Source: Desertivirga xinjiangensis (GTDB lineage Bacteria > Bacteroidota > Bacteroidia > Sphingobacteriales > Sphingobacteriaceae). From it: a stretch of DNA of 64,000 nucleotides. Both the position numbers and the translations under genes were made by a program. Position 1 is the stretch's first letter. Each line of letters starts with the position of its first letter. Shown here one piece after another: positions 10,138-28,194 of this stretch. The DNA lies in the NCBI RefSeq assembly GCF_024436435.1, contig NZ_JAFMZP010000003.1:496001-560000 (forward strand), written 5' to 3'. Under the pieces are notes generated by a model, which searched no databases, was not told the DNA's origin, and saw only the letters and a list, made by a program, of their open reading frames with translations.

Positions 10138-10727
10138 GACTTCGGGGGGCTTATATGGCTCATGTCCACCGTGTTATACTCCCTGCCGGCTTCCCCTGCC
10201 CCATATAGTGCGAAATGTTTGACGCAGGCCATTATATTGGAATTGGAAGAAAAACTGTTGTCCCTTCCCTGATATCCACTCACCATGGCTTTAGCTATCT
10301 GCCCGCCCAGGAAAGGGTCCTCACCGGCGCCTTCCGCAACCCGCCCCCACCTTGGATCACGCGCCACGTCTACCATTGGGCTGAATGTCCAGCTAATGCC
10401 GTCAGCGCTGGCTTCCTTTGCTGCTATCTGTGCAGTTTTCTCAATTGCTGCCATATCCCAGGAACAGGCCAGGCCCAAAGGAATGGTAAATATCGTTTCA
10501 TAGCCATGAATAACATCCATTCCGAATAATAACGGGATTTTCATCCGGCTTTCCTCTACTGCAAGACGCTGAATCTCCCTAATCTTTTCCACTCCCTTGA
10601 TGTTGAACATACCACCAACCTGACCTTTTCTGATCTTTGCGGTAATATTGTCGTTGGTTCCAAGTCCTGTAATAATGTCGCCCTCAGCCGGAAGATTGAG
10701 CTGTCCGACTTTTTCCTCCAGTGTCAT
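10134..10727 (-). pseudogene. GH3 beta-glucosidase (BglX-like) stump, both ends lost
   Basis: About 197 codons match the N-terminal third of BglX-type GH3 enzymes: MTLEEKVGQLNLP, GGMFNIKG, LLFGMDVIHGYETIFTIPLG, WTFSPMVDVARDPRWGR, MACVKHFALYGAGE, REYNTVDMS. The match stops at VDMSHI and a stop follows within five codons, next to the stop of the receiver-PAS-kinase gene. The nucleophile region, second domain and fibronectin-like domain are all missing (a full enzyme has about 750 residues). Upstream, an in-frame TAG lies four codons before the first Met, and no signal peptide is present. It reads as the last gene of the PUL, cut off by a deletion or recombination at the locus edge. Confidence 0.85.
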
Positions 10728-10819: not shown

Positions 10820-13012
10820 TCAATTCCTGATCTTTATTGTGGCAGATGATTCTGTTTTTTGTGAAGAAGATGCAAGATATACCGTAAACTTATCTTCCTC
10901 CAACATCCAGCTTCCTGTCTTCGCGTTGTAAAAAGCAAAGCTTTCAACCGGAATACTGATCCTGGTACTCCGCTCTTCGCCCGCTTCTAAAAACAACTTT
11001 CTAAATGCTTTAAGCTCCTTTACTGGACGCATGACTGAAGGATTTTCCTGACCTATGTACACCTGTACCGACTCTGCCCCTTTTATTTTCCCGGTGTTTT
11101 TTAAAGTAAAAGAAATAATTACCGAATCGCCCTTGCTGTATATCGTTTTATCCGTTGAAATTCTTCCGTATCTGAACGTCGTGTACGAAAGTCCATATCC
11201 AAAAGGAAACTGCGGGTCAATTTTTTTCTTTTCGTGCCAGCGGTAACCAATCAAAATATCATCTTCGTAATGCTGTGTATCACTCACTCCCGGATAGGAC
11301 CGCTTACCAAAATAATGAGCGCTGTTATCTTCCAGTTTCACCGGAATGCTGAATGGCAGCTTACCCGAAGGATTTATATGGCCGCTGATGACGCCCGCTG
11401 TCGCTGCCCCTGCCTGAGAGCCTAAATACCACGACTGTATCAGCGCGTTTATTTTACCCAGCCAAGGCATGCTTACGGCATTACCGCTTATCAGGATCAC
11501 CCCGGTATTTTTATTTACCCGGAGTATTTTTTCTATCAGTTCATTTTGACCGTAGGGCAGGTCCATATTCTTTCGGTCGCCGCCTTCGCAGTCCTGACTG
11601 TAGTTCTTGTTCAGGCCACCAAAAAACAGTACGATGTCTGCTTCTTTAGCTATTTTCAAAGCTTCCTGTGTTAAGGAATCTGCATCCAGTCCGGAGGGCA
11701 ATTCCCTACTATAGTCAGGGTTTCCTGAGGCGTAACCCAGCGTGAACAGGATATTCTCTCTTCCGTATTCATTGATCATACCCTGTAACGGCGACACCTC
11801 CTCCCTGGCTTTCAACTCAGAAGAGCCACCACCCTGGGAAAGCCGCTTAACGGCATTCTCGCCTATTACTGCGATTTTCTTATACGACCTTTTTACCGGA
11901 AAAAACTCTCCCTTGTTTTTCAGCAATACGATCCCCTCTTCGGCAATCCGGCGGGCCAAGGCGGTATGTTCAGGGGCCAGCTTTTTCCCATAAGCCCGGC
12001 TGCGGTCCATATTCGTCCGGAAGTTCAGACGCAGTACGCGGCGTACTTTCTCGTCGAGCAGGGATTCGGGCCATTTTCCGTCCTGTATGGCCTTCAGAAA
12101 GGGCTGCGCCAGGTAATATTTGTCGTAAGCCGAGCTCTCCCCCCAGGTTAACCCGTTTGTCCACGAGCCCATTTCAATGTCCAGTCCGTTGTACACGGCC
12201 TCTCTGGTATCATGGGCCGACCCCCAGTCAGTCATCATGACTCCGTCAAAACCCCAGTCGCCTTTCAGTATTTCATTGATCAATAATTCATTGTGAGAAC
12301 AATACTGTCCCCTGAACTTATTATACGAACCCATCACCGCCCATACACCGCCCTCCTGCACTCCTGCTCTGAAGGCAGGGAGGTAGATTTCGTAAAGCGC
12401 ACGGTCGCTTACTTCCACATTGATCTTATCACGGTTTTCTTCCTGGTTGTTCAATGCAAAATGCTTCATGCAGGCCGAAACACCATTTTGCTGTACACCC
12501 CGGATATAAGGTACCACCATTTTTGAACTCAAATATGGATCTTCCCCCAGATATTCGAAATTCCGCCCGCTGAGCGGCGTACGGTATATGTTCACACCCG
12601 GGCCTAAAATCACATCCTTTTTTCGAAAACGAGCCTCTTCTCCCAACGCATTGCCATATTGAAATGACAGTTCCGGATTAAAGGTAGCGGCAAGACACGT
12701 TAACGCAGGATAAGCTGTACATGAGTCATTGGTCCAGCCCGCATGTGTCCAGTCATCCCAGGCAATCTCCATACGCACTCCGTGAGGGCCGTCGCTCATC
12801 CAGAGTTCGGGGATCCCGAGACGCGGGCACCCTGGAGTGCTGAATTTCGATTGTGCATGGATCATGGCAATCTTTTCCTCCAGCGTCATCCGCGACAGGG
12901 CATCCTCAATGCGGTAGTTAACAGGCTTGGTCTCATCCAGATAAACCGGTACCTGTGCGGACACGGAAAGGAAAAGAAGACTTAGTGCCAGGCTTGATGT
13001 TATCTTTTTCAT
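10820..13012 (-). CDS. GH3 beta-glucosidase
   Basis: 730 residues. A Sec signal peptide (MKKITSSLALSLLFLSVSAQ) is followed by the GH3 TIM barrel with GPGVNIYRTPLSGRNFEYLGEDP, the KHF motif in CMKHFALNNQE, and the nucleophile Asp262 in GVMMTDWGSAHD. The alpha/beta sandwich domain and a C-terminal fibronectin type III-like domain follow. It should release glucose from the non-reducing end of beta-glucan oligosaccharides in the periplasm. It belongs to a different GH3 subgroup from the adjoining stump. It lies 24 bases downstream of the first GH16, within the PUL operon. Confidence 0.94.
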   Translation of the reverse strand: MKKITSSLALSLLFLSVSAQVPVYLDETKPVNYRIEDALSRMTLEEKIAMIHAQSKFSTPGCPRLGIPELWMSDGPHGVRMEIAWDDWTHAGWTNDSCTAYPALTCLAATFNPELSFQYGNALGEEARFRKKDVILGPGVNIYRTPLSGRNFEYLGEDPYLSSKMVVPYIRGVQQNGVSACMKHFALNNQEENRDKINVEVSDRALYEIYLPAFRAGVQEGGVWAVMGSYNKFRGQYCSHNELLINEILKGDWGFDGVMMTDWGSAHDTREAVYNGLDIEMGSWTNGLTWGESSAYDKYYLAQPFLKAIQDGKWPESLLDEKVRRVLRLNFRTNMDRSRAYGKKLAPEHTALARRIAEEGIVLLKNKGEFFPVKRSYKKIAVIGENAVKRLSQGGGSSELKAREEVSPLQGMINEYGRENILFTLGYASGNPDYSRELPSGLDADSLTQEALKIAKEADIVLFFGGLNKNYSQDCEGGDRKNMDLPYGQNELIEKILRVNKNTGVILISGNAVSMPWLGKINALIQSWYLGSQAGAATAGVISGHINPSGKLPFSIPVKLEDNSAHYFGKRSYPGVSDTQHYEDDILIGYRWHEKKKIDPQFPFGYGLSYTTFRYGRISTDKTIYSKGDSVIISFTLKNTGKIKGAESVQVYIGQENPSVMRPVKELKAFRKLFLEAGEERSTRISIPVESFAFYNAKTGSWMLEEDKFTVYLASSSQKTESSATIKIRN

Positions 13013-13036: not shown

Positions 13037-13885
13037 TTATTGGTAGACTCGGACATAATCGATCGCATATTCGAGAGGCATCAGACTGGTATCAATCCCT
13101 TTCATTCCTCCCCATCCGCCTCCAAACGCCAGATTGAGTATGAGATAGAATGGACGATCAAAAGGCCAGTTTTCCCAGGTGCAGTTCTGTGGTTTCTTCG
13201 TTACAAATCTCTTTCTTCCATCTAAATACCACTCCATCCGGTCTTCGTGCCACTCCAGAGCATATATATGAAAGTCGGCGGGCGTGAGATTAAAAACATT
13301 TGAGCCGATACCGTTATTCCGCACGTGATTAAACGCTTCCGTATGAATGGCATAATGATTCTTTTCCGGCTCATATCCCACATGTTCCATGATATCGATT
13401 TCCCCGCTTTTAGGCCATTTACCGTAGGTGCTTTCTGATGGCATCATCCAGATGGCTGGCCAGCTACCTAAACATATCGGAAGTTTAGCGCGCACTTCAA
13501 CCCTGCAGTACTTCCAATCGGCTTTTCCCTTAGTCAGAATACTGGCGGATGTCAGCGGCCGCTTCTCTCCGCTGATCAGTGCGCTGTCGTTCCTCGCAGC
13601 GATGTAAAGCTTACCGTCTTTCTGGTAACAGTTTTCCTTCCGCTCCTTCGTATAATACTGCAATTCACCGTTCCGAAGATATCCCTCTTCAAAACTCCAT
13701 TTAGAAGCATCGGGCAAGCCCTTACCGTCAAACTCGTCATAAAAGACCAGCTTTGTGTACCCGGCGGGCACAGGCCCTGGCTGACGACGCCCCACTTTAT
13801 CATTCTGGCCTGCGGCGCCTCTCACTACACACATTGCAGCAAGGGTCATTGCAATATATAAACCTGTTTTTGTTCTTATTTTCAT
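13037..13885 (-). CDS. GH16 endo-beta-glucanase (laminarinase type)
   Basis: 282 residues with a Sec signal peptide (about residues 1-26). The GH16 catalytic motif ExDxxE is GEIDIME, with Glu162 (nucleophile), Asp164 and Glu167 (acid/base), in the bulged form typical of the beta-1,3-glucanase subfamily. Aromatic cleft residues are present (SWPAIWMMP, YALEWHEDRMEWYLDG). The expected activity is cutting beta-1,3 or mixed-linkage glucans. It lacks a lipobox, unlike its neighbour, so it is probably periplasmic or secreted. It and the next GH16 are close paralogues lying 8 bases apart. Confidence 0.93.
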   Translation of the reverse strand: MKIRTKTGLYIAMTLAAMCVVRGAAGQNDKVGRRQPGPVPAGYTKLVFYDEFDGKGLPDASKWSFEEGYLRNGELQYYTKERKENCYQKDGKLYIAARNDSALISGEKRPLTSASILTKGKADWKYCRVEVRAKLPICLGSWPAIWMMPSESTYGKWPKSGEIDIMEHVGYEPEKNHYAIHTEAFNHVRNNGIGSNVFNLTPADFHIYALEWHEDRMEWYLDGRKRFVTKKPQNCTWENWPFDRPFYLILNLAFGGGWGGMKGIDTSLMPLEYAIDYVRVYQ

Positions 13886-13893
13886 ATTCTTAC

Positions 13894-14736
13894 TTATTGA
13901 TATACACGAACATAATCAATTACATAATCTAAGGGAAGTTTACTCAGATCGACACCTTGCTGTCCGCCCCATCCGCCTCCGAACGCCAGGTTAATGATCA
14001 GGTAAAAGTGTTGATTGAACGGCCAGCTCTGCCAGGTGCTGTTAAGCTCTGTTTTGTATTCATGTACCGGCTCTCCGTCAAAATACCATATCAGCCGGTC
14101 GCGTTGCCATTCAAGGGCATAAACATGGAAATCGCCGGGTGTTGTCGTTGTTAATGTTGCTGCCTTGGCATTATTTTTAGTATAGTTGTACTTTTCCATA
14201 TGCGCGGTAAAATGCATCTTCGTTGCATCGTACCCTACGTTTTCCATAATATCGATCTCTCCGGATTTAGGCCATCCGCCATAAATTGCAGTCGATACAG
14301 GCAGCATCCAAATTGCAGGCCAGGTGCCCCTGGCTACCGGGAGTTTAGCCCGCACTTCCACGCGGCAGTACTTCCATCCGGCCTTAGCCCGGGTAGTTAT
14401 ACTTGCGGATGTAAAGGGTCGAGTTTCTCCATCTATCAACGCGTTATCATTTCGTGCCACGATATGCAGATTTCCATCTTTTTGATAACAATTCTCCAAC
14501 CGGCCGTTAGTGTAATATTGAAGTTCACTATTTCTGACGAACCCGATTTCAAACCCCCATTTTTGGGCATCAGGCAATCCGTCACCCTCAAACTCGTCTC
14601 CAAACACTAGTGTCTTGAACTCGACAGGGATATAATTATGATGTCCTGGTTCATTCCCTCTCAGATTGGCAATTTCTTCTTCACAACCCATCAGGAAAAG
14701 GGTAAGTATTAAAGTATATAGAAATGTGTTTTTCAT
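13894..14736 (-). CDS. GH16 endo-beta-glucanase lipoprotein (laminarinase type)
   Basis: 280 residues. The N-terminus MKNTFLYTLILTLFLMGCEEE is a lipoprotein signal (lipobox LMGC), and the acidic residues after the Cys fit surface export. Catalytic motif GEIDIME: Glu160, Asp162, Glu165. It shares almost its whole layout with the neighbouring GH16 (LQYYT, NCYQKDG, WKYCRVEVRAKLP, AFGGGWGG), so the pair arose by tandem duplication. The likely division of labour is surface cutting by this one and further trimming by the non-lipoprotein copy. Confidence 0.93.
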   Translation of the reverse strand: MKNTFLYTLILTLFLMGCEEEIANLRGNEPGHHNYIPVEFKTLVFGDEFEGDGLPDAQKWGFEIGFVRNSELQYYTNGRLENCYQKDGNLHIVARNDNALIDGETRPFTSASITTRAKAGWKYCRVEVRAKLPVARGTWPAIWMLPVSTAIYGGWPKSGEIDIMENVGYDATKMHFTAHMEKYNYTKNNAKAATLTTTTPGDFHVYALEWQRDRLIWYFDGEPVHEYKTELNSTWQSWPFNQHFYLIINLAFGGGWGGQQGVDLSKLPLDYVIDYVRVYQ

Positions 14737-14779: not shown

Positions 14780-16798
14780 TTATCTGGACGGTGAAAATAA
14801 AACAGCATCGGCAACGATCGCTTTCCCTTCATCCTTGTTGTTGATTTCTACGTAAGCACGTCTTCCCCTGGGCATTTTATACGTCCCCAGGTAAGCCCAT
14901 TCGCCCCCTGTTTGCCCTTCGGCGACTATATCCGCCTTTGAAATTGTTTTTTCAATTGTCTTTTTTCCATCGTAAATCATCACCCGGGTACGTTCGGCGA
15001 GGTCCTCTATCATCGGAATGTAGGCGTAAACGGCGTACTTCTTTTCACTTAATATCTCCGGAGTGTACTTTACAGATCTGTACACTCGCTCATTGCCGGC
15101 AGCAACCAGAAAGTTTGCTGCTGCCCCGTACGACCGGTAAGTATCTTTTCTTAGCTCCCAGTTTCCTGAGACAGTTACAGCCTTTCTATCGTCGTTATCG
15201 ATCAATATTTCTGCGGTACTGTGGTCCGTCAGCGGGTTATTCCTGATTTGTTCCTGCAGCGAAGCTACATCAATATCCTGAACGGCCACATGACGTTCCA
15301 CCGCCATACAAGCCGCAACCGCTGCAGATTGCGCGAGTACCATAAACACTGGCTCCATCCGTATAGAACCGTAGGCGATATGCGATGCTGACAGACAGAC
15401 AGGCACCAGAAGGTTTTCCACTTCCTTTTTTTGGGGAGTAATGGCCTTGTAGGATATCGGAAAGGGGGGGAACCCGTCGACCTCCACATTCCCTTCATTT
15501 CTGACAAATCCGTCTACCACCAGGCGGTCGCAATTGTGCGAATCCATGGTATAGGCCGCCCAGCCGATCGCATCATGGCAAACTTCCCGCCCCTCACAAT
15601 GATGCTGCGTCATGACCAGCTCGCCTTTCAGCCGCCTCGCCTCGCGTACGTACAACTGGTGGCTCCAATGCCCGTTCTTAACGTACTCGTCTTTCGGATA
15701 TCCCCATCTTTTCATTTCCTGCCGGATATTCTCCGGCATCCGCGGATCATTCCCCACAAAATAGAGCAGCCCTTTCGTATAGTCGACATGTTGCTGCCAT
15801 ATCTTCTCCCGCTCCTCGTATGGGGCCTCCGGATAATCCCAGTTTGCACCGATCATATCGGTAGAAAAGCCACCTTTGTTATTGATATCGGTTTTTCTAT
15901 TGGGCATCAGGCTCCAGGTAAACAAGTCGTGAAGCGATTTTCGTGGTGCGGTTTCGTGAAACCTTGCGAGCAACTCGTACTTTTTCGGGTCATAGCGGTC
16001 TGGCTCGGTAATATTTACCCTGTTAGCGGGATCGTCCGTCAGCGTGATTCTGAAATTGTATGCCTGAACCTTACGATCTCCACTTCCCGTCTTTTCCAGT
16101 CTGTTGTTGCTGATGCCCCATAATAGACCACTCGCCGGATCTCCTTTTACCAGATACGGATCGACATCGTCCCAGAACTGATGGCCCTTCATCAGTTGCA
16201 CGCCATTGTATGTTTCACCGTACACACTGTTCGCTTCCCGGCCTACCGTATACGATGCGCCGGCTTTGGCCATCAGGTCTCCTTCGTACGTACAATCAAT
16301 AAACACGGCAGCCTTAATGCGTTTGTTGGTTCCCGCTTGCGGGGCGGCGGTATCCTCTACCGTGATTTCGCAGATCCGGCCATCTTTCTTTTCCAGGTAC
16401 GCGAGTCTGCGGCCATACCAAACCTCCACTTCGGTTTCGTCTATATACTGGTTAAAGATTTTTTCAGCTATGCCCGGCTCAAATATCCATTGTTCTAGCT
16501 TCCCATAATGCTTTCCCAGCCTCCGGTAGAAGTCCCGTGCGAGGCCGGTCACTACGTACTTGTTACCAATGTCGGTATATCCTAAGCCCCCCGAGCTCAT
16601 CCCGCCCAGATTGTAACGGGGTTCTATCAACACTACAGATTTTCCCATTTTTTTTGCGGTATAGGCAGCTATCACGCCCGCTGAGGTGCCGCCATAAACA
16701 CATATATCTACGTTGGCAACCTGGTCTGCTTTGATGGAAAAAGAGAGGATTGACGATAAACAAAGAATTAAAAACAGTCTGATTACTTTCATGATCAA
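14780..16798 (-). CDS. Secreted FAD-dependent oxidoreductase with golvesin-like C-terminal domain
   Basis: 672 residues with a signal peptide. An FAD-binding Rossmann motif is at the mature N-terminus (VDICVYGGTSAGVIAAYTAKKMG), followed by the FAD_oxidored family body (YNLGGMSSGGLGYTDIGNKYVVTGLARDFYRRLGKHYG; HCEGREVCHDAIGWAAYTMDSHNCDR). The last 130 residues form a beta-rich golvesin/xanthan-lyase-type domain (SGNWELR...YRSYGAAANFL). Such proteins are frequent in PULs, but their substrate is usually unknown; oxidation of a sugar or a linked group is plausible. It is 43 bases upstream of the GH16 lipoprotein on the same strand. Confidence 0.85.
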   Translation of the reverse strand: MIMKVIRLFLILCLSSILSFSIKADQVANVDICVYGGTSAGVIAAYTAKKMGKSVVLIEPRYNLGGMSSGGLGYTDIGNKYVVTGLARDFYRRLGKHYGKLEQWIFEPGIAEKIFNQYIDETEVEVWYGRRLAYLEKKDGRICEITVEDTAAPQAGTNKRIKAAVFIDCTYEGDLMAKAGASYTVGREANSVYGETYNGVQLMKGHQFWDDVDPYLVKGDPASGLLWGISNNRLEKTGSGDRKVQAYNFRITLTDDPANRVNITEPDRYDPKKYELLARFHETAPRKSLHDLFTWSLMPNRKTDINNKGGFSTDMIGANWDYPEAPYEEREKIWQQHVDYTKGLLYFVGNDPRMPENIRQEMKRWGYPKDEYVKNGHWSHQLYVREARRLKGELVMTQHHCEGREVCHDAIGWAAYTMDSHNCDRLVVDGFVRNEGNVEVDGFPPFPISYKAITPQKKEVENLLVPVCLSASHIAYGSIRMEPVFMVLAQSAAVAACMAVERHVAVQDIDVASLQEQIRNNPLTDHSTAEILIDNDDRKAVTVSGNWELRKDTYRSYGAAANFLVAAGNERVYRSVKYTPEILSEKKYAVYAYIPMIEDLAERTRVMIYDGKKTIEKTISKADIVAEGQTGGEWAYLGTYKMPRGRRAYVEINNKDEGKAIVADAVLFSPSR

Positions 16799-16864: not shown

Positions 16865-17701
16865 TTACTCAGCCGGTACAAAAACTGAAAACCAACATTC
16901 CTGTCCGGCACTGATCCCGGGGGGCGCAACTGCCAATACAAGCAAGTCATTGGTCAGCTGTACGATGTGGAACTCTTTAGCTTCTTTCTTGTCTGGTTTA
17001 TAATATACACCACCGGGAACACTAATGGTTGTCTTCAACATCCCTAATGACCATAGTCTTGTGTTACTGGTATGATTCAGTTTTGAATTCAGATCTATTT
17101 CAAATTTCCCGGTCAGGACAGTCCCGTCGTTACGCTTTTTAGTCAGGACCGACCCTCGCAGGGCAAGACTGAACTGCGATCCTTTCCCTTCACCGCGTAT
17201 CAGCGTACCATCCAGTTCGCCGACCATCAGGCTCCACCACGCCGGACCGGAATCAGCCCTGAAGCCGCCGTTACCCCATGCTCTTGCTGTTTCCCGCCAC
17301 TTCCAGGATTTGGTGCCTGTACCGCAAAGGAACGCGTATTCGGGAGCAACAGGGAATTTCAATTCTTCTACCACTATTTCCAGCTTTTTTTCAACAGTAG
17401 TCCCGTTCGGGTTAAACCCGGTAAAATAAATATCCTGTTCTCCGTTCATCACCATTAACACGGTGTCGGACTGTTTGCGGCTTTTGCCCGTTCCGTAGTC
17501 CCATAGCGAAAGGACAGGGCTGTGGTTTTCCAACACCACTTTATTGGTCTTCTTGCCGTCAACGACAAGAGGTGTTGCCGTAACATTTAATTGGTCGGCT
17601 GTGATAGAATCGCCTATCAGGTCTCTGTCTTCTACAGGCTTGCAAGCTACTAGTATCAGGGCTGCGAAAAAAAGACAGACATAGTTGATTAGATTTTTCA
17701 T
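16865..17701 (-). CDS. PUL surface lipoprotein, putative glycan-binding protein
   Basis: 278 residues. The lipoprotein signal ends LILVAC, followed by a PKD/Ig-like N-terminal domain (about 35-110) and a C-terminal beta-rich domain with many tryptophans (KSWKWRE, PAWWSLMVGEL, RLWSLGML, CWFSVFVP). No catalytic motif is visible. It lies 29 bases after susD, the place usually taken by SusE/SusF-like or surface glycan-binding proteins. I infer a binding role from position, lipoprotein signal and exposed aromatics. No exact family was recognised. Confidence 0.7.
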   Translation of the reverse strand: MKNLINYVCLFFAALILVACKPVEDRDLIGDSITADQLNVTATPLVVDGKKTNKVVLENHSPVLSLWDYGTGKSRKQSDTVLMVMNGEQDIYFTGFNPNGTTVEKKLEIVVEELKFPVAPEYAFLCGTGTKSWKWRETARAWGNGGFRADSGPAWWSLMVGELDGTLIRGEGKGSQFSLALRGSVLTKKRNDGTVLTGKFEIDLNSKLNHTSNTRLWSLGMLKTTISVPGGVYYKPDKKEAKEFHIVQLTNDLLVLAVAPPGISAGQECWFSVFVPAE

Positions 17702-17730: not shown

Positions 17731-19437
17731 TTATCTCCATCCCAGAAAACTTGCTTCTGCTGTGCCCCAACCGGGATTTTGGGTAAGCACACCTTCCGAA
17801 AGAGCGATCTGTGTTTCAGGAATAGGCCAGAAACCGCCGGTGGCGGCATAACGCGCCTTATATCCACCCCCTGCTTCTCCCATCACAGCATCCAACTTAT
17901 TGTTCTTTACCTTAACACCAGCCTGCCTGGCCAGTGCTTCTGGAGCATCTCCCCACCGCATCAGGTCAAAATAGCGTATTCCTTCAAAAGCCAATTCCCA
18001 GCGACGTTCCTTCTTTAGCGCAGATAATGAATAAGTTACCGGCTGAAGATCTACCCTTTGGCGAACGCGGTTGATGCCATTAGCGGTGCCTGTTAATTCC
18101 GAGTGCATTAACAGCACGTCCGCAAAGCGGATCAATACGAGGTCCTGGGTGTGGCACAGCTGAAATTCGGCCGGAGAGGCTCCGTCTTTTGGAACAGAAT
18201 ACGATGGAAGCACCTTTCCGGTCGCATCTTTCGCTGTAATCGGAATATACTTTTTCTGCCAGAAGCCAGTTTCCTCCATTTGTTTGCCGGCCCCCCAAAT
18301 GTAGCCGCTTAACTGATTCACATCTAAAATGGAAGCAGTACGCCGGACATCATCGGGTTCGGCAAGCTGCCATTCTTCCCAAAGATCAGAATTAACTGTC
18401 CCGAAACCCCAACCCTGTCCGAAAGGGAACGTATTGCTACTGCCATTGCCGCTTCTCAAGCCAAAATAAACGATAAATTGGTTGGAATAGCCGGTACGGT
18501 CCCATGTAGCGCCTATCCCGTATTTTATAGCGAACACACTTTCCTTATTTCCATCTCCCTCCCAACGAAGGCCTGCGCCGTTCGGATACGTATAATTGCT
18601 GGCAGTATACTCATTGGTTTCTGGCCACAAGTTTCGGAAATCGCTTACCAGGTCGTGCCCGCTGCTGGCAATACAATCGTTCAGCCACTCAATCACTTCA
18701 CTTTTAGAAATGCTCCCCGTACTGCCATCATCATTGGCCAGCGGAAGCGCATCTTTTTTATAGTAGCCGGTGTAGAACAAAAACACACGTGCCATTAGCG
18801 CCTGAGCAGCCCACCTGGAGGCATGTCCTGCCTGAGCGGGGCCGGAGTACGGCACTGCATTCAGCATGCTGATTGCTTTCTCTAAATCAGCTGCAATTAA
18901 GGCATACGTCTGCACGGCGGGCGTCTTTGGGATGTTCTCTACTGCGCTTTGAACGATCAAAGGCACCTCTCCGAATAGCTGCGAGAGTTCAAAGTAATAT
19001 AAAGCCCGCAGAAAATAGGCTTCGCCTTTGAAGTGATTTTTTTGTTCTTCACTCTCCCAGCCGGTGCAGTTGTCGAGGGTTTCCAGTGCGCTGTTAGCCC
19101 GGAAGATCCCCCGATAGCGGGAGGTCCATAAAGCGGCCATACGGTCTACGCCGTTGGTCATTAAACGGTCTATCGCCTGCGTCGCCAGGTCCGATTCGCC
19201 GCCCCCTCCAAAACGGTCGTCAGAGGCTACTTCTGCCAGGTAAAAGGCGGCCGACATGGGCGATGAGCTCGACATGCTCAATGAGGTGTATATTGCGGTA
19301 ATAGCCTGTTCCGCATCCTTTACGGTCATCGGCCAGTTCGAGGTATCCTGCTTAGTCAGGTTCTCCGTATCTAAAAACTTCTCACAGCCACTGAGCAATA
19401 TCACAACAGCAATGATCGACAGTATTCTCTTTTTCAT
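17731..19437 (-). CDS. SusD/RagB-family outer-membrane glycan-binding lipoprotein
   Basis: 568 residues. Lipoprotein signal with ILLSGCEKFLDTEN, then the SusD TPR-like helices (AEQAITAIYTSL, FRANSALETLDNC, GEAYFLRALYYFELSQLFGEVPL) and the C-terminal RagB region (LIRFADVLLMHSEL, RRWELAFEGIRYFDLMRWGD, WPIPETQI). SusD proteins form the lid on the SusC channel and capture oligosaccharides. It starts 22 bases after susC on the same strand. Confidence 0.95.
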   Translation of the reverse strand: MKKRILSIIAVVILLSGCEKFLDTENLTKQDTSNWPMTVKDAEQAITAIYTSLSMSSSSPMSAAFYLAEVASDDRFGGGGESDLATQAIDRLMTNGVDRMAALWTSRYRGIFRANSALETLDNCTGWESEEQKNHFKGEAYFLRALYYFELSQLFGEVPLIVQSAVENIPKTPAVQTYALIAADLEKAISMLNAVPYSGPAQAGHASRWAAQALMARVFLFYTGYYKKDALPLANDDGSTGSISKSEVIEWLNDCIASSGHDLVSDFRNLWPETNEYTASNYTYPNGAGLRWEGDGNKESVFAIKYGIGATWDRTGYSNQFIVYFGLRSGNGSSNTFPFGQGWGFGTVNSDLWEEWQLAEPDDVRRTASILDVNQLSGYIWGAGKQMEETGFWQKKYIPITAKDATGKVLPSYSVPKDGASPAEFQLCHTQDLVLIRFADVLLMHSELTGTANGINRVRQRVDLQPVTYSLSALKKERRWELAFEGIRYFDLMRWGDAPEALARQAGVKVKNNKLDAVMGEAGGGYKARYAATGGFWPIPETQIALSEGVLTQNPGWGTAEASFLGWR

Positions 19438-19459
19438 ATCTTTCCTATGTTAGTATCGG

Positions 19460-22400
19460 TTAGTATTTTATGCTCACTCCGAGCAGGAATGTGCGCGGAC
19501 TTGGATAAAATCCGACATCGATCCCGGAAGCCCATGCCCGGCCATCTCCATAGCCGATTTCAGGGTCCATACCCGAATATCCGGTAAACGTATACAGATT
19601 GTTTACTGCCGCATACAACCGGGCCTGCGAAACCGGCATGTTTCGGAACAGCCGTTTGAAATCGTATCCCAGCGTAACATTCTGAACCTTTACATAATCG
19701 GCGTCTTCGACGTATATATCAGATATTTTAGCCCAATTGGTGTGTCCTCCGTTGGTCAGCCTCGGCAATCTGTTGGAAGTGCCTTCGCCATGCCACCTGC
19801 CGAATATATCGGTCGTGTAGTTCTGATAGGGGGCGTCTACAAAAGATCGGTACGATCGCGCAATCTGGTGACCGAAGGCGCCTCTGGCAGTGGCTGAAAA
19901 GTCGAAACCCTTGTAGGCAAAGTTCAGATTAAAGCCTATAATCACGTCAGGGTGTGGATTACCAATAAGTACCTTGTCTTTATCATCGATCACCCCGCTT
20001 CCATCGGTATCGACAAATATCAGGTCGCCGGGTTGCGCCCCGGCGAGCTTTACCGGCGTATTGGCAAGTTGCTCAAGGTTCTGGAAAACGCCTGCCGTCT
20101 TGTATCCCCAGAAATATCCTACAGGGAATCCAACTTCGGCACGATACATTTCTGTGGTGTTCTGGCTTAATACCCCTGCGTCACCGTGTATAATACCCTC
20201 CGAATTGGCTATACGGACCACTTCGTTATGGTTGTATGCCATGTTAAAACTAAGGCCGTACCTGAAATCGCTGACCCTGTCGTTCCAGCTTACTACTGCC
20301 TCAGCCCCGGTGTTTTCAATCTCTCCTCCGTTAATGTACGGCGGGTTAGTTCCGTAAGTAGCCAGTATAGGCGCCTGAACCAACCAATCTTTAGTATTTT
20401 TTTTGTACCAGTCGAAGTTAAGTCCTAGCTTGCTGCTGATAAAACGCGCATCGAAGCCCAGGTTCAGCTGTTCCGATTTTTCCCAGCTTACCGAAGGATT
20501 CGCAACGATGTCGGGATATCCCCCCACTTGTAATGTCGTTTTATTTCCAAAGTAATATCCTCCCTGGTAGGGGTTGAAGGCAATCGTTGCCCTGTACTGA
20601 AAATTCGGTATGTCGCTGTTCCCGTTTTGCCCCCAGCTTGCCCTCACTTTAAAGAAATCCATCCAGTTGAGCACTGGTTTCATGAAGGGCTCGTTGCTTA
20701 TTACCCACCCAGCGGATGCTGCAGGAAAGTGGCCCCAGCGGTTTCCGCGTGCAAAGTTCGAGGAACCATCGGCACGCAGGCTGGCAGATGCCAGATATTT
20801 TTCTTTGTAATTATAGTTAACACGTCCGAAAAAAGACACCGATGCGCCATCCCCCCAGGGCGAGCCGCTTACCGATGTATTCGTTTCCGATATTCCCTGA
20901 GTATTGTTGATCCAGGCATGTTTCCACGAACCGGGGAACAAGGAGTTCGCGTTTTTTGCCGCCAGGTTATCTCCGTATCCCCATCTGGAAATAGAATGTC
21001 CCAGCAAAGCCTCCAGATGATGATCTTTGCCAGCGGTCACATCATACGTTAGCGTATTCTCTATATTCCATCCCCAGCCGGAGTTCTGACTTTGATTTAC
21101 ATGATCATTCTCGTCAACAACCGAAGGCGACAAATTGTACGAAGGGGTATATTGCCGGTAGCTGCCGGCGCTGTTGTTGTATCCAAACAGCGATTTGAAC
21201 TTCAGATCTTTTACTGGCTGGATCTCCACGAACGCGTTCATACGCAGCGCAAAGTTCTTGCTTATATTATGCCCGCGCATATATTCCATGGCCGCAATGG
21301 GATTGACCGCCCCGCTCCAGAACGTCCATTCGTCGCGATCCTTGCTGGGCTGGTCGAAATATTCGCCCGCGCCATTATAGACCGGCATCAGCGGTGTAGC
21401 GCTCAGCATACTGCCGATATCGTTCCAATAACGGTTACCAATAGCGATCCCCGCGTTTTCCCTATGCGAATAGGTAATGTTTTCACCCACTCTGATCACA
21501 TCGAAGCGATCGTTTTTAACCAGGGTATGCTGAGAATTAACCCTGACATTAAAACGTTTAAAGTCAGGGGCAACAGGCTCTCCTAATATGCCTTCCTGCT
21601 GGGCGTGAGAAAGCCCGATCGAATAGGAAGATTGAGCGCTACCGCCCGTAAAGCTTAGCGAATGGTTCTGGTCGATCGCATTCTGGTTCCTGATCTGGTT
21701 CAGCCAGTTGGTGCCATTCCATGTCCCATTGATAATAGCGTTATACTGATATGGTATCTGCGCAGCAAAATCAATGGTCGGGGCGCCATCGTTCCTTAGT
21801 GCCTCGTTAATTATTTGCATATATTCCGTGGCGTTCAGAAGGGGTGCCATTTTGTATACGTTCTGCCAGCCGACATAGCCGTCATATGCGATTTGTGATT
21901 TCCCCTTTCTGCCTTGCCGAGTAGTTACCAGGATGATCCCATTTGCGCCCCTTGACCCGTAGATCGCGGCAGAAGCCGCATCTTTCAGTATGTCGACAGA
22001 TTCGATGTCGGCCGGGTTCAGATTATTGATGTTTCCGCCAGGTATCCCATCGATTACGTACAGCGGATCGGAATTCCCGATGGTGCCCAGACCGCGGATC
22101 CTTACTTTGAAACCTTCGCCAGGCATACCCGAACTCTGAACAATGCTTACACCAGGCGCCTGGCTTTGCAAAGCTCCTAGCACACTATGTGTGCTTAGCT
22201 TTTGCAGATCTTCGCCCTTCACCTGCACAGTGGCTCCGGTAACAAGCTTTTTCTTTTGTATGCCGTACCCAATTACGACCACCTCATTAAGCAAGGCGCG
22301 GTCTTCCCGAAGAACGACATTGACAGAACTCCTATTGCCTGCTTTGATCTCCTGCGGTACGAAACCAACATAGCTAAATACAAGTACATTATCGGCGGAT

Positions 22401-22675
22401 GGCACCGTAATGATGTAATTACCGTCTACGTCTGTCACAACGCCAGTTTTAGTGCCTTTTACCAATACGCTTACGCCAATCAGCGGGTTATTCTCACTGT
22501 CTTTCACAGTGCCCCTGACTGTTCTGCCCTGAGACGGCTGACTGCTTTTCAGCATTGCCGGTACGCTCCCCATCATACGACAGGGTGCACAAACAGCTAA
22601 TAAAAATAAGAGTGCAAATCGAATAAGCTTGCCTGGTCTGGCCGCCTTTCTTCTCTTGTCAAAGTTTTGGTTCAT
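19460..22675 (-). CDS. SusC/RagA-family TonB-dependent outer-membrane transporter
   Basis: 1071 residues. An extended signal region is followed by a carboxypeptidase-D regulatory-like domain (GTVKDSENNPLIGVSVLVKG), a plug domain (VVIGYGIQKKKLVTGA; DPLYVIDGIPGGNINNLNP; DILKDAASAAIYGSRGANG) and the 22-strand barrel ending in the aromatic-terminated VSIKY. It imports oligosaccharides with TonB energy and is paired with the SusD downstream. It begins 99 bases after the GH26-like gene, with no clear TAnnTTTG element in that gap, so it is probably read through from the GH26-like promoter. Confidence 0.96.
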   Translation of the reverse strand: MNQNFDKRRKAARPGKLIRFALLFLLAVCAPCRMMGSVPAMLKSSQPSQGRTVRGTVKDSENNPLIGVSVLVKGTKTGVVTDVDGNYIITVPSADNVLVFSYVGFVPQEIKAGNRSSVNVVLREDRALLNEVVVIGYGIQKKKLVTGATVQVKGEDLQKLSTHSVLGALQSQAPGVSIVQSSGMPGEGFKVRIRGLGTIGNSDPLYVIDGIPGGNINNLNPADIESVDILKDAASAAIYGSRGANGIILVTTRQGRKGKSQIAYDGYVGWQNVYKMAPLLNATEYMQIINEALRNDGAPTIDFAAQIPYQYNAIINGTWNGTNWLNQIRNQNAIDQNHSLSFTGGSAQSSYSIGLSHAQQEGILGEPVAPDFKRFNVRVNSQHTLVKNDRFDVIRVGENITYSHRENAGIAIGNRYWNDIGSMLSATPLMPVYNGAGEYFDQPSKDRDEWTFWSGAVNPIAAMEYMRGHNISKNFALRMNAFVEIQPVKDLKFKSLFGYNNSAGSYRQYTPSYNLSPSVVDENDHVNQSQNSGWGWNIENTLTYDVTAGKDHHLEALLGHSISRWGYGDNLAAKNANSLFPGSWKHAWINNTQGISETNTSVSGSPWGDGASVSFFGRVNYNYKEKYLASASLRADGSSNFARGNRWGHFPAASAGWVISNEPFMKPVLNWMDFFKVRASWGQNGNSDIPNFQYRATIAFNPYQGGYYFGNKTTLQVGGYPDIVANPSVSWEKSEQLNLGFDARFISSKLGLNFDWYKKNTKDWLVQAPILATYGTNPPYINGGEIENTGAEAVVSWNDRVSDFRYGLSFNMAYNHNEVVRIANSEGIIHGDAGVLSQNTTEMYRAEVGFPVGYFWGYKTAGVFQNLEQLANTPVKLAGAQPGDLIFVDTDGSGVIDDKDKVLIGNPHPDVIIGFNLNFAYKGFDFSATARGAFGHQIARSYRSFVDAPYQNYTTDIFGRWHGEGTSNRLPRLTNGGHTNWAKISDIYVEDADYVKVQNVTLGYDFKRLFRNMPVSQARLYAAVNNLYTFTGYSGMDPEIGYGDGRAWASGIDVGFYPSPRTFLLGVSIKY

Positions 22676-22774
22676 ATTTGTTTAGTTTATGGCGTTTGTA
22701 TTTTCATCTGCCACACGTTTTTCTAACTCCTTCCAACAAGTTCCTCTGCGGCAATGAGATTTATTCCTGTCATA

Positions 22775-23926
22775 TCAAACCGGTCCCGGTTGCCTGATAT
22801 CTCCAAGCAAAAGCACATCGGGCTTGTTAACGAATTCAACGAAATTATCGCTGGCCGGATGCCCGGGAACTGGAATGTAATAGTGCGATTCATCGTTCCA
22901 GGCATTCCGCCAGAAGAGGATATAACTCAACTTATACTGCGAAAATATAGGGTAAAGATAGTCTGTAAAATAGTTGGCCTGTCTGATTCCCTCCATTCCT
23001 GTGCAGGTAACCGACGGCACTTTCTTATGCTTCACTGAAAAACCGTTTAGGAAACTCAGACTTTCATTTAATCTGCTTTTATATCCTTGCCCGTCAGGAT
23101 CTGACGGCTGATCAAAGAACAGGTCTATTCCGACGATGTCAACGTATTCATCACCGGGGTAATAATCTTCCAGCTCACCGGAAGACGCAGTCCCATACAC
23201 CGAATAAGCATACAGAATGTGATGTACATTTCTTTTCTCCCGCAGATAGGTAACGGTAGCCTGCCAAAGCTTCTTAAAATCTCCGGCTGAATTTTGCGCT
23301 GAGTTCCACCAATAAGCGCCCGGTTTATTGTGTGACATATACGGACGGAAAATTAGCGGAATATATCTCCCATTGGAATCTTTTAAAGAAAGCATAAAAT
23401 CGGCTAACTTATCAAGCCAGGCATAAAAAACTGTACGGTGTATGCTGTCCATTAGAATTGCGTCAATTGGCCGGCCAACCGTGGTATCGTCGTAACTCCC
23501 CCGGGTCAGCGGATTGTCGGCATGCCAGCTTGCCGTGGATATAATGCCCCGGGCGTGAGCCTCTGCTATTCTTTCCCGGATTAGTGCAAAGGGAACCGAG
23601 TCTATATTAAAGTCTGCGTTTGTTTCGATATTGCCAAAATCCCAGCCTGTAACGGCAGGATAGTCGCCCGTGATCCGTTTAATATCAGAACCGTTCTTGT
23701 CGGCAAACCATTTATTACCATACAACAGGTCGTCCTGATGACCGATCATCGTGCCCTTTTGAATCGTAGTTTCCATAAATGCAAGCAATTCCTTTACCTC
23801 CTCAGCAGCATAACGATCAGATATGGCAGACTGACGGCCCGGCAGATCGGCCTTCTGGTAAGTACAAGCTGTATAACTACATAAACAACAGGTAATTAAC
23901 AATACATTGATACTACTTATGGGCAT
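22775..23926 (-). CDS. GH26-fold lipoprotein with both catalytic Glu replaced
   Basis: 383 residues. The N-terminal signal ends CSYTAC, so a lipoprotein is likely. The GH26 fold is clear: GHQDDLLYG, YPAVTGWDFGN, SWHADNPLTRGSYDDT, LIFRPY, HILYAYS, DEYVDIVGIDLF, YILFWRNAWN, YYIPVPGHPASDNFVEF. Active GH26 enzymes have FRPxHE carrying the acid/base; here it is FRPYMSHN with Ser198 at the Glu position (codon at 23333-23335). The nucleophile segment xTEVGxEG reads VTCTGMEG, with Cys308 in place of Glu (codon at 23003-23005). The protein should therefore be inactive as a classical retaining mannanase or glucanase and may serve in binding. It heads the PUL operon, directly behind a promoter. Confidence 0.85.
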   Translation of the reverse strand: MPISSINVLLITCCLCSYTACTYQKADLPGRQSAISDRYAAEEVKELLAFMETTIQKGTMIGHQDDLLYGNKWFADKNGSDIKRITGDYPAVTGWDFGNIETNADFNIDSVPFALIRERIAEAHARGIISTASWHADNPLTRGSYDDTTVGRPIDAILMDSIHRTVFYAWLDKLADFMLSLKDSNGRYIPLIFRPYMSHNKPGAYWWNSAQNSAGDFKKLWQATVTYLREKRNVHHILYAYSVYGTASSGELEDYYPGDEYVDIVGIDLFFDQPSDPDGQGYKSRLNESLSFLNGFSVKHKKVPSVTCTGMEGIRQANYFTDYLYPIFSQYKLSYILFWRNAWNDESHYYIPVPGHPASDNFVEFVNKPDVLLLGDIRQPGPV

Positions 23927-23951
23927 AATCAGGTCCTTTCCGTTTACAAAT

Positions 23952-23959
23952 CAAAAATA
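23952..23959 (-). promoter_or_regulatory. -7 element for the PUL operon (GH26-like gene first)
   Basis: Minus strand reads TATTTTTG, a match to TAnnTTTG, 25 bases ahead of the GH26-like ATG. No obvious TTTG -33 box is seen, which fits a promoter needing an activator such as the divergent regulator. Confidence 0.45.
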
Positions 23960-24032
23960 GGCTTAACCGCCTAATACCGTTTTCCTGTGCCCATCATTTC
24001 CTTTTCCATATCTACCAGGTAATTGCGTAAAT

Positions 24033-24061: not shown

Positions 24062-24139
24062 ACCTGTCCCTTTGCCAAACCACCCTATATCTATCCTGTT
24101 TTCCGGGATGAATTTTAAAGAAGTATATCCGGAAAAGAT

Positions 24140-24147
24140 TAAATTTG
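24140..24147 (+). promoter_or_regulatory. -7 element for the hybrid two-component regulator
   Basis: TAAATTTG matches TAnnTTTG. Transcription would begin near 24154, which rules out the TTG at 24145 as the start codon and favours the TTG at 24175. Confidence 0.45.
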
Positions 24148-24174
24148 TATAATAACCACCTTAAAAACCACAAA

Positions 24175-27100
24175 TTGAAAACATTTCTACCCATCGCTTT
24201 CTTTTTGCTGATTCAGTTATCGATATCCCCTGTTAAAGCATCCGCAGCGTTCGACGATGTCAATAGGTCGATCAACAGTCATGTCAACAAGTTATATCAG
24301 GACAAAAAAGGTTATATATGGATCTGTACTGACAATGGTCTCAGCAGGTTTGACGGGGCTGGCATCAAAACATTTTATCACGTCTATGGCGATTCAACTT
24401 CGCTGAAAAGCAACGCGGTGCTCTCAGTACTGGAAGACAGTAAAGGCCATTTCTGGGTGGGTACGACAGGGGGGCTGCAACTGCTTGACCGCAATACCGA
24501 AAAATTCAAAAATATTCACTTTTCTTATCCCCATATTACAGACTTTTCCTATATCAGTTGCATTCTTGAAGACCGGAAGGGCAATATCTGGGTCTCTACC
24601 GGTAAGGCCGGCGCTATACGTTTACAGGCAAAAACCCTGCGCCCCACCTACTACCTGCCTACAAACAGCAACATTTGTAGTAATATTATCAATTATATCT
24701 TTGAAGACAGGTACGGAAACATATGGCTCGGTTCGCAAGACCGTGGCGTAAGCGTTATTAACGTCGACAACAACATTATTGTCAATTACCGGTATGAGCC
24801 TGGCAACAAAAAATCTCTTTCCAGCAGTAAGATCTTTTCAATAGCAGAAACGCCCGGGGGAGACGTTCTTATCGGGTCTATCGACTCAGGTATCGACCTG
24901 TTTGATTATTCATCCAGAACGATCAAACGAAATTATATACCACGAAGCTACCTGGTATATACCATGATGACAGACAGGAACAACAACCTGTGGATAGGTA
25001 CCGACGGCGACGGCGTTAAACAATATAACTTCGAAACCAGGCAGACGACAACATACGAACACTTTGTGCAGAACATAAACCTTGCGAATGCAAAGGTTCA
25101 TAGTGTGATCGAAGACAAGCAGGGAAACATCTGGATGGGGCTCTACCAAAGGGGCGTTGTAATGATCCCTCCCTCGGGTAAAACGTCGGGATTCCAGATC
25201 ATTGGAAGCAACACCTTTTACGGGAAAAAAAGCATCAGCCTCGATTGTGTGCTCAGTATCCTGGAAGATCAGGATCAGCATCTTTGGATCGGCACAGATG
25301 GCGACGGAATCTACCGGTTTGATAAAAACAAAGATCTATACAGGCATTACCATCTGGGCAGGAGCCATGGCAAAAGTGCGTTATCGATCGTTCAGGACTC
25401 GAAAGGACGTATCTGGACAGGTACTTATCTATCCGGATTGTACCTGTACGATCCGCAAACGGATACATTTGCGCCCGAGCCCCTGCTCTGCAACGGAGAT
25501 AAAGTGACCGACATCAATACGATCGCCGAGGCCGACGATAAAACACTCTGGATAGGGACAAATAATAACGGAGTTTGCATTTACCATCCCGATACAAAAA
25601 AAACCAGATGGTTGCAGCACGATATCAAGAGAACCGGGGAACAACTGCTCAGCAACTCCATTCACTCCATCCTGCACGATGCTGCCGGTAACGTCTGGAT
25701 CGGGACCAGTACGGCCGGCCTTAGCTGTTACAACAAGCCGACCGGTTCTTTCACAAATTACACCGCTGCTAACGGGAAGATCAGCAATCCCAGTATTACC
25801 CAAGTCGTATCAGGGCACAACGGAAATTTATGGGTCGGCACGAAAACCGGCTTAAACTATTTAGACCTGCAGAAAGGAACCACTACCATATTTACAGAAG
25901 CAGATGGGCTCAGGTCAGCATCCATAAGCGCAATAGAATCCGACCATCAGAACAACATTTGGATCAGCACCATGAGCGGCCTGTCGAGGCTAAATACCAG
26001 TACAAAAAAAATAACCAATTTCGAAATAACCGATGGATTAACGATGAAAGGAGAGTTCAGGAGAAATGCCAGTTTCCGGTCTGCCCAGGGAGAACTGTTT
26101 TTCGGAGGAACAGGCGGACTGGTGCATTTTAAACCCTTTAAAGATATTGCTTCTCATCCTGTCCTTGGCCTGTACCTTACCGATCTGTATATTTATAGTA
26201 AGCGGGTTGAGCCAGGTTCTTCAAACGATTCCCCGATCAGGCAAAGCGCAGACGTTAGTACTGAGGTAAATTTCGGCCATCAGATAAAGAACTTTTCGTT
26301 CGGCTTTGCGGCCATCGAATTCAACCAACCCGGAAAAGTGATCTATCAGACTAAAATGGAGGGCTTCGAGGATGAATGGAAGACCGTCCGCACAGGTAAC
26401 CGCCTGGCCACTTTTACTAACCTTTCTCCCGGCCGTTACCTGTTCAAGGTACGCGCCTTTCTGGAAGGGACCAGGCCCGTCGAACGTACCATCGCTATTG
26501 TCATCCATCCGCCCCTGTTGCTCACGTGGTGGGCTAAAACGCTGTATACCGCAATCTTCATTGCCCTCTTGTGCCTGATATACCGGGCAATCAAGCACGG
26601 CCAGCATAAAAAGAAAGAAGACGCCCTGAAAGAAGGCGAGGCCCGCATGATGCAATCTAAATTACAGTTCTTCACGGATATTTCGCACGAAATACGTACC
26701 CCGCTTACTTTAATCCTCGCCCCGTTGGAAGAACTTTTAAAGAATGAAAACAACCCGTCGTTATCAAAAGTGTATCAATTGATCAATCAGAACGCTCATC
26801 GCATTCTACGGCTGATCGATCAAACCAGGGATGTAAAAAGGATCGACCAGGGAAAGGTCAGCCTTTGTACCGAAAACACAGAGCTGAATCAATTTATTGA
26901 AAGCATCGCACGTTCTTTCGACTATATTTCCCGCGAAAAGAACATTGAGCTGATTCTTGATACCGATAAGAATATTTCTCTTTTATGGATTGATAAAGAC
27001 ATTTTAGATAAAGTTCTGGTAAACCTGCTTTCGAACGCCTTCAAATACACAGATTCCGGGGGCGTCATCTCGGTAAAAACCGAAGTTCAGAATAAAACCA

Positions 27101-28194
27101 TCAACATTTGTGTAACTGATACGGGCATCGGTATTCCGGTTCGGTACAGAAAGCTGGTATTTGAGCGTTTTTACCGCGTTCCAAACGACGACAATAAAGC
27201 CATAGCGGGAACAGGCATCGGCCTCCACATTTCCCGCAGTCTGATGGAGCTTCACTATGGAACGATCTTCATCAAAGACACGCCTTCCCGCCAGGGCACC
27301 GCAGTGGTCATACAGATCCCTGCAAACGACCTGCGCCTGAAGCCTGTTCCAAAACAGGATGAAGTTGCCACGGGAACGAATCGCTCGGCTTCCGGCAGGC
27401 CAGCATCAGGAAAGCACCCGGGCCGCTTTACCTTGCTGATTGTCGAGGATGATAAAAGTATCCGGAGCTACCTATCGTCAATACTGGAGAAGGAATACAG
27501 CATTATTGAGGCGTGCGACGGCATAGAAGGGCTTGAAAAGGCGATCAGATACGTGCCGGACTGTATCGTCTCTGACCTGATGATGCCTCGTTTAGACGGG
27601 TTGGAGCTCTGTAAAAAAATAAAATCACATGACCGTACCCGCCATATTCCGGTGATCATTCTGACAGCTAAAGGAACGCTCGCCGATCGTATTGAAGGCC
27701 TTCAGGTAGGAGCCGACTCGTATATCCCTAAACCGTTTAATACAGATCACCTCAAAACCAGGATATCAAAGCTAATAGAGCTCCGGAGCATTATAAGCGA
27801 AAAGTTAAAAGACGACGCGAACGGCAGATCGGAAAAACCGGCGTTGAAGTCAATAGACGACGTATTCTTAGAGAAGTTGGAACTTATTGTCAGAAAGCGT
27901 ATCGACGACCCCGAATTATCCGTCGATGTGATCAGCAGCGAGATAGGGGTCAGCCGGTCTCACCTGCAGCGCAAAATGAAGCAGCTAACCAGGCAGAACC
28001 CTAGCGAATACATCAAAACAATGCGGCTAAAACATGCGGCCTGGCTGCTAAGTTCTAATAAACTGACTGTATCCGAAGTTTCATATGCTACTGGATTCAC
28101 TACCCTGTCACATTTCTCGAACAGTTTCAAAGAGCAATACGGAATGTCGCCTACCAGGTACCTTGAAATTCATGCAGCCCATTGTCAGCTTTGA
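24175..28194 (+). CDS. Hybrid two-component system regulator of the PUL
   Basis: 1339 residues from the TTG at 24175, which puts a good signal peptide first (MKTFLPIAFFLLIQLSISP). A TTG ten codons earlier overlaps the promoter -7 box. Order of domains: periplasmic two-component propeller repeats (many GNIWVGT-like blades, about 25-660), a Y_Y_Y domain (about 670-790), one membrane helix (about 800), HisKA with His838 in DISHEIRTPLT, HATPase (DTGIGIP, GTGIGLHI), a receiver with Asp1134 in SDLMMPRLDG, and an AraC-type DNA-binding domain. It senses an oligosaccharide in the periplasm and activates the adjacent divergent operon. All kinase and receiver residues look intact. Confidence 0.93.
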   Translation: MKTFLPIAFFLLIQLSISPVKASAAFDDVNRSINSHVNKLYQDKKGYIWICTDNGLSRFDGAGIKTFYHVYGDSTSLKSNAVLSVLEDSKGHFWVGTTGGLQLLDRNTEKFKNIHFSYPHITDFSYISCILEDRKGNIWVSTGKAGAIRLQAKTLRPTYYLPTNSNICSNIINYIFEDRYGNIWLGSQDRGVSVINVDNNIIVNYRYEPGNKKSLSSSKIFSIAETPGGDVLIGSIDSGIDLFDYSSRTIKRNYIPRSYLVYTMMTDRNNNLWIGTDGDGVKQYNFETRQTTTYEHFVQNINLANAKVHSVIEDKQGNIWMGLYQRGVVMIPPSGKTSGFQIIGSNTFYGKKSISLDCVLSILEDQDQHLWIGTDGDGIYRFDKNKDLYRHYHLGRSHGKSALSIVQDSKGRIWTGTYLSGLYLYDPQTDTFAPEPLLCNGDKVTDINTIAEADDKTLWIGTNNNGVCIYHPDTKKTRWLQHDIKRTGEQLLSNSIHSILHDAAGNVWIGTSTAGLSCYNKPTGSFTNYTAANGKISNPSITQVVSGHNGNLWVGTKTGLNYLDLQKGTTTIFTEADGLRSASISAIESDHQNNIWISTMSGLSRLNTSTKKITNFEITDGLTMKGEFRRNASFRSAQGELFFGGTGGLVHFKPFKDIASHPVLGLYLTDLYIYSKRVEPGSSNDSPIRQSADVSTEVNFGHQIKNFSFGFAAIEFNQPGKVIYQTKMEGFEDEWKTVRTGNRLATFTNLSPGRYLFKVRAFLEGTRPVERTIAIVIHPPLLLTWWAKTLYTAIFIALLCLIYRAIKHGQHKKKEDALKEGEARMMQSKLQFFTDISHEIRTPLTLILAPLEELLKNENNPSLSKVYQLINQNAHRILRLIDQTRDVKRIDQGKVSLCTENTELNQFIESIARSFDYISREKNIELILDTDKNISLLWIDKDILDKVLVNLLSNAFKYTDSGGVISVKTEVQNKTINICVTDTGIGIPVRYRKLVFERFYRVPNDDNKAIAGTGIGLHISRSLMELHYGTIFIKDTPSRQGTAVVIQIPANDLRLKPVPKQDEVATGTNRSASGRPASGKHPGRFTLLIVEDDKSIRSYLSSILEKEYSIIEACDGIEGLEKAIRYVPDCIVSDLMMPRLDGLELCKKIKSHDRTRHIPVIILTAKGTLADRIEGLQVGADSYIPKPFNTDHLKTRISKLIELRSIISEKLKDDANGRSEKPALKSIDDVFLEKLELIVRKRIDDPELSVDVISSEIGVSRSHLQRKMKQLTRQNPSEYIKTMRLKHAAWLLSSNKLTVSEVSYATGFTTLSHFSNSFKEQYGMSPTRYLEIHAAHCQL

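Follow-up and report, generated by a model that had tools for sequence, protein, structure and literature searches.

Why would a PUL that appears to serve β-glucan be headed by a lipoprotein with the fold of a GH26 β-mannanase, and what could such a protein be doing once the catalytic residues of that fold are gone? The question is raised by one gene of the window (the whole stretch of 64,000 nucleotides analysed here), the first of a minus-strand PUL operon. Its product, called pseudo-GH26 below, and three of its sites are as follows:

22775..23926, minus strand: pseudo-GH26 lipoprotein of 383 aa (ORF, PF02156, AlphaFold2 pLDDT 94, Foldseek to 4zxo)
23864..23866, minus strand: Cys21, the presumed lipidation site (YTAC; leader read by eye)
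23333..23335, minus strand: Ser198, in place of the acid/base Glu where barrel strand 4 ends (alignment to 4zxo, model)
23003..23005, minus strand: Cys308, in place of the nucleophile Glu where barrel strand 7 ends (alignment to 4zxo, model)

The reading frame of ORF 22775-23926 on the minus strand is uninterrupted over its 383 aa, and PF02156 (GH26) is the sole Pfam match of the protein (E 3.8e-36). By sequence, the nearest solved structure is BoMan26A (4zxo, E 1.1e-71), and by fold, as compared through Foldseek with an AlphaFold2 model of mean pLDDT 94.1, it is again 4zxo (TM 0.88/0.93, rmsd 1.5). With both the profile and the (β/α)8 barrel present, the protein belongs to GH26 as a family of fold and sequence, and the GH26 fold and intact frame of the original prediction both hold. 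The hydrophobic leader ending in YTAC plausibly serves as a lipoprotein signal.

The catalytic center tells a different story from the fold around it. We located the catalytic positions of the window protein through sequence alignment together with the DSSP strands. In BoMan26A, the acid/base Glu188 ends strand 4 and the nucleophile Glu292 ends strand 7 (PMC5217682); in the alignment with 4zxo, FRPWHEH pairs with FRPYMSH and TETGLEG with TCTGMEG, and in the model Ser198 lies directly past barrel strand 4 and Cys308 within strand 7, which places Ser and Cys where the two glutamates should be, just as was first proposed. Among the five further residues conserved through GH26 (His125, His187, Trp193, Tyr259, and Trp323 in BoMan26A; PMC5217682), two are kept, as His135 and Trp339, and the other three are replaced (His by Met197, Trp by Ala204, and Tyr by Phe270). 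A retaining hydrolase would thus be short of its acid/base Glu, its nucleophile Glu, and three of these five residues. The accompanying remark that the surrounding aromatic residues are well kept survives in part, with Trp339 retained but the +1 Trp and the -1 Tyr lost. Over columns with at least 90% conservation among the catalytic relatives, the window protein proved altered at 7 of the 11 conserved -1/+1 subsite residues vs 4 of the 51 remaining ones (Fisher p 1.7e-4); catalytic relatives scored alike carry a mean of 0.09 changes at the 11 active-site positions (maximum 1) and 2.5 at the other 51. The active-site departures are far beyond chance, and since the changes elsewhere are about as many as in catalytic proteins, the window protein is there about as well kept as a working enzyme. 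A catalytic Glu shifted to a nearby position was also considered and rejected: no clade-specific new Glu lies near strands 4 or 7, and Glu101 and Glu312 are ancestral, occurring in the catalytic relatives.

Is the loss confined to a single genome? Among 401 Sphingobacteriaceae genomes, the family of the window, no sister protein with the same catalytic loss was found, and the best other match (46% identical; Olivibacter domesticus, locus L061) is catalytic. This own-family search at first suggested a one-off loss, an idea that was overturned by a pattern scan of 85,000 named species genomes and by searches of other families, which yielded 13 further acid/base-less GH26 proteins in 11 other genomes. 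Three are from Dysgonomonadaceae (L053, L069, L160), nine from Barnesiella (L052, L186, L187, L188, L206, and a more degenerate branch of L196, L207, L208, and L209), and one is from another Bacteroidales family (L189); the nearest relative of the window gene is 47% identical to it. In a maximum-likelihood tree of 63 proteins, built with the active-site columns removed, the 14 pseudo-GH26 proteins are monophyletic with a branch support of 100/100, and all 49 catalytic relatives retain both Glu. Within the clade, the acid/base Glu is gone from every member and the nucleophile Glu from 11 of the 14, residues 198/308 being S/C in the window protein and S/E (two), S/D, G/S (three), A/S, A/G (two), C/G, W/G, N/G, and W/E in the others. 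What defines the clade is accordingly that the acid/base Glu is gone, replaced in many ways, and not Ser/Cys, the possibility raised at first. Because the tree needs one change at the acid/base position and at least four at the nucleophile, the acid/base residue would have been lost first, and the nucleophile later and repeatedly. Pfam GH26 scores lie far above the cut-off in all members tested, and L208, of the most degenerate branch, is still predicted to form a GH26 barrel (pLDDT 90.1, TM 0.84/0.88 to 4zxo).

The same survey bears on the suggestion that the protein is an active enzyme with a different mechanism, e.g., one using a Cys nucleophile. Cys308 does occupy the nucleophile position in the window protein, but we reject this reading because the Cys is found in that member only, the others having Ser, Asp, Gly, or Glu; moreover, the acid/base position is taken by Ser, Gly, Ala, Cys, Trp, or Asn across the clade, and the -1 and +1 residues have been lost as well. 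Such an enzyme is very improbable.

Has the gene, then, simply decayed? Loss of the catalytic residues, together with a truncated GH3 gene at the end of the PUL in the window genome, could be taken as the marks of a relic without function. Against this, the frames are intact in all 14 clade members, the fold is confidently predicted, conservation outside the active site is unchanged, and dN/dS is about 0.1 where measurable. Specifically, the ratio falls between 0.09 and 0.22 in 15 of 16 within-Barnesiella pairs, the 16th having a saturated dS; these ratios are rough, many other dS values being above 1, and they apply to Barnesiella pairs, with the window gene outside. On the dN/dS values and the active-site focus of the losses we reject decay, giving it scarcely any credence. 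What we have is a pseudoenzyme clade, a monophyletic loss of catalytic residues under purifying selection (in its Barnesiella members), in keeping with the selection, not decay, of the original prediction.

What selection now holds in place seems to be another part of the molecule. Mean pairwise identity in loops 3 and 4, the catalytic face, is 0.26 and 0.22 in the pseudo clade vs 0.56 and 0.67 in the catalytic relatives; in loops 7 and 8 it is 0.63 and 0.70 vs 0.47 and 0.53. A sliding comparison agrees, conservation being gained most at residues 341-370 and 306-335 and lost most at 191-215. The two segments concerned are:

22967..23011, minus strand: loop 7, residues 306-320, where conservation was gained in the pseudo clade
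22832..22906, minus strand: loop 8, residues 341-365, NAWNDESHYYIPVPGHPASDNFVEF, far more conserved among pseudo clade members than among the catalytic relatives

The clade bears the signature NAWN-x-E-x-HY-x-IP[VI]PGHPASEDF. In BoMan26A, loop 8 (323-342; about 339-358 in the window protein) occupies the glycone end, past subsite -2 (PMC5217682). Going by these sequence comparisons, we read this as a functional surface that would have moved to loops 7/8, on the glycone side.

The surroundings of the gene speak to the substrate. The PUL of the window comprises, besides pseudo-GH26:

24145..28194, plus strand: HTCS, hybrid two-component system regulator, divergent neighbor of pseudo-GH26 (Pfam domains)
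19460..22675, minus strand: SusC-like TonB-dependent transporter (TIGR04056, E 3.9e-275)
17731..19437, minus strand: SusD-like lipoprotein (PF14322/PF07980)
16865..17701, minus strand: 278-aa lipoprotein in the SusE/SGBP slot, of no known family
14780..16798, minus strand: FAD-dependent oxidoreductase with a golvesin C-terminal domain (PF12831, PF25275)
13894..14736, minus strand: GH16 laminarinase-like enzyme a, catalytic motif EIDIME intact
13037..13885, minus strand: GH16 laminarinase-like enzyme b, catalytic motif EIDIME intact
10820..13012, minus strand: GH3 β-glucosidase-like enzyme, 70-77% identical to the GH3 of most related loci
10134..10727, minus strand: second GH3, truncated to its N-terminal ~189-197 aa at the end of the PUL, the remainder absent

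Both GH16 enzymes are nearest to laminarinases/β-1,3(4)-glucanases (3iln), and since they are laminarinase-like and keep EIDIME, a β-1,3-glucan is the likely substrate of the PUL. The β-glucan context put forward at the outset is thereby supported, the locus being of SusCD/GH16/GH3 composition with laminarinase-like GH16s. The 278-aa lipoprotein at 16865-17701 gave no Pfam, NCBIfam, or solved-structure match and is a probable SGBP of a fold that matches no solved structure; it has orthologues in L183 and L061. The PF12831 FAD oxidoreductase recurs in β-glucan loci of this kind (window 14780-16798; L182 15412-16791 and 17703-19559; L052 11014-12462), with no obvious part in glucan breakdown. 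A DUF5040 + CBM96 protein stands beside GH3 in the pseudo-GH26 loci L052 (14725-16527) and L053 (13568-15364) and is absent from the window PUL. Over its residues 47-226, the second GH3 of Barnesiella, which is intact (L052, 16523-18778), matches the GH3 fragment at 10134-10727 with 50% identity; the fragment is cut off at a histidine-kinase gene (8713-10137). GC is 0.48 in the PUL (10134-28194) vs 0.42 for the window outside it. This GC difference and the truncation at the kinase of a GH3 that is intact in Barnesiella together suggest that the PUL was horizontally acquired.

The association with this kind of locus holds across genomes. An HTCS orthologue (45-55% identical) lies beside pseudo-GH26 or heads the same operon in all 13 other members, compared with none of the 68 neighborhoods of catalytic relatives. 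GH16 orthologues occur in 8 of the 13 member loci in the fragments first fetched and in 11 of 13 after a wider look (L216 has none on its contig, and L218 was not extended), vs 0/68 for the catalytic relatives, so that the expected clade beside GH16-containing PULs does exist. SusC/SusD orthologues are present in all loci except L069 and L215 (short contigs) and L216. Searched for in turn, the HTCS has an orthologue in 2 of 101 Dysgonomonadaceae and in 7 of 9 Barnesiella genomes; these are precisely the pseudo-GH26 carriers among the 110 genomes, and of 100 relatives the window's own genome is the only one with it. In one Barnesiella genome, a further HTCS copy, which is disrupted, lies at the end of a 7-kb contig that lacks pseudo-GH26, and in three Barnesiella genomes (L214 5047-9165, L217 10683-14878, L243) the HTCS orthologue is split into several ORFs, through either frameshifts or assembly errors.

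Such strict co-inheritance of HTCS and pseudo-GH26 in 110 genomes of two families gave rise to the thought that the protein is a regulatory co-receptor, which would present ligand to, or modulate, the periplasmic sensor domain of the divergent HTCS. The GH26 barrel would then be a dedicated HTCS co-receptor with a new site on loops 7/8, i.e., a dead mannanase in β-glucan sensing, a tentative idea that we hold to be rather unlikely. The gene is, to be sure, the immediate divergent neighbor of the HTCS, first in the opposite direction, in 8 of the 14 loci, the window included. But HTCSs normally bind their oligosaccharide directly, the whole PUL is equally linked, so that the co-inheritance is not specific to the HTCS, and in six loci pseudo-GH26 is the third operon gene, behind susCD.

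We favor, with a probability of roughly 0.6, a different role, namely that of a non-catalytic, membrane-anchored glycan-binding accessory (SGBP-B/SusE-like) of a β-1,3-glucan PUL. It is supported by the position directly 3' of susD, the SGBP/SusE slot, in 6 of the 14 loci, and by the lipoprotein-type leader in all; in every other clade member a hydrophobic leader is followed by Cys (lipobox-like, judged by eye). In the window, the gene stands immediately before susC, hence next to susCD, as an SGBP gene would. In a comparable GH16/GH3 locus, the SusE-positioned SGBP-B binds β-glucan (PMC7157763). For pseudo-GH26 we infer that it binds glycan, and likewise its ligand, the site of binding, and its exposure at the surface, along the following lines. 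A lipoprotein of the GH26 β-mannanase type would have lost its acid/base residue once, in the ancestor of the clade, and would then have been kept as a non-catalytic accessory of one β-1,3-glucan utilization locus with HTCS, SusC, SusD, GH16, GH3, and usually the FAD oxidoreductase, the nucleophile and other -1/+1 residues drifting several times independently. It may capture the glucan, or oligosaccharides derived from it, on behalf of the GH16 enzymes and SusCD via the remodeled surface round loops 7/8, on the glycone (-2/-3) side, and not via the old catalytic center.

Several observations weigh against capture. The old cleft is not conserved among clade members, so any ligand shared by the clade would not be bound there; the gene sits beside the HTCS and not after susD in the window and seven other loci; and in the window PUL the SGBP slot is already filled by a different lipoprotein. 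In addition, the closest precedent, the GH18-like pseudoenzyme BT1284 of another PUL, had no measurable binding to its expected glycan (PMC11180146), and for this reason a co-receptor or a scaffold role keeps some probability. As a scaffold subunit of the SusCD outer-membrane complex, the protein would bind protein partners through loops 7/8 and no glycan at all, which fits both a loop 7/8 surface newly conserved while the cleft varies freely and the result for the GH18-like protein; no partner is known, however, and in several loci the gene is not adjacent to susCD, and we consider this role doubtful, slightly more so than the co-receptor.

As for the origin of the proposed glycan-binding accessory, the nearest catalytic branch includes Olivibacter, where the GH26 gene clusters with GH130, MFS, and epimerase genes (L061), by its gene content a mannan pathway, and on this ground pseudo-GH26 appears to have been recruited from a mannanase into a β-glucan locus. 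Could it still be a mannan lectin, recognizing β-mannan through the retained -2 side with catalysis gone? This relationship, along with the largely retained Glu101, His63, and loop 2 residues, would agree with it; the PULs, however, carry GH16/GH3, with no mannan enzymes among the annotated neighbors, and we judge it improbable. The SusC, SusD, and 278-aa lipoprotein of the L061 mannan locus (2-5746, 6047-10972) are 59, 61, and 42% identical to those of the window PUL, and its SusCD is closer to the window SusCD than is the SusCD of other pseudo-GH26 loci.

These findings matter in practice, as automated pipelines would label the clade GH26 and predict mannanase activity in Barnesiella, Dysgonomonas, and Sphingobacteriaceae for a locus that probably consumes β-1,3-glucan instead. 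Carried by gut and environmental Bacteroidota, the clade offers a natural series of the re-use of a glycosidase fold, in which the acid/base residue was lost once, constraint moved to another face, and the nucleophile has been lost to differing degrees (Glu, Asp, Ser, Cys, Gly); the passage from an enzyme to a binding protein can thus be tested directly.

Pseudo-glycosidases in PULs are already known; the open-access literature yielded no conserved one derived from GH26, nor any dead or non-catalytic GH26 or GH26-derived SGBP, which is weak evidence as few subscription journals were covered. With BoMan26A (4zxo) and CjMan26C the window protein shares the whole (β/α)8 barrel at 37% identity, the loop 2/loop 8 architecture, and the extra GH26-conserved structural residues; unlike BoMan26A, it has Ser and Cys for Glu188 and Glu292 and has lost the -1/+1 subsite His, Trp, and Tyr, and unlike both it belongs to a GH16/GH3 β-glucan locus and not a mannan locus. 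BT1284 and the B. faecium GH18-like protein resemble pseudo-GH26 as dead glycosidase folds conserved across species in Bacteroidales PULs, but differ in being GH18, in their N-glycan substrate, and in an extra β-sandwich domain (PMC11180146). BuSGBP-B of the B. uniformis β-1,3-glucan PUL is described only as sequence-divergent, with no GH26 fold reported, in contrast to pseudo-GH26; as a non-catalytic binder in the SusE position of an HTCS/SusCD/GH16/GH3 locus (PMC7157763), it matches the role proposed here and, by analogy, is likely its functional counterpart.
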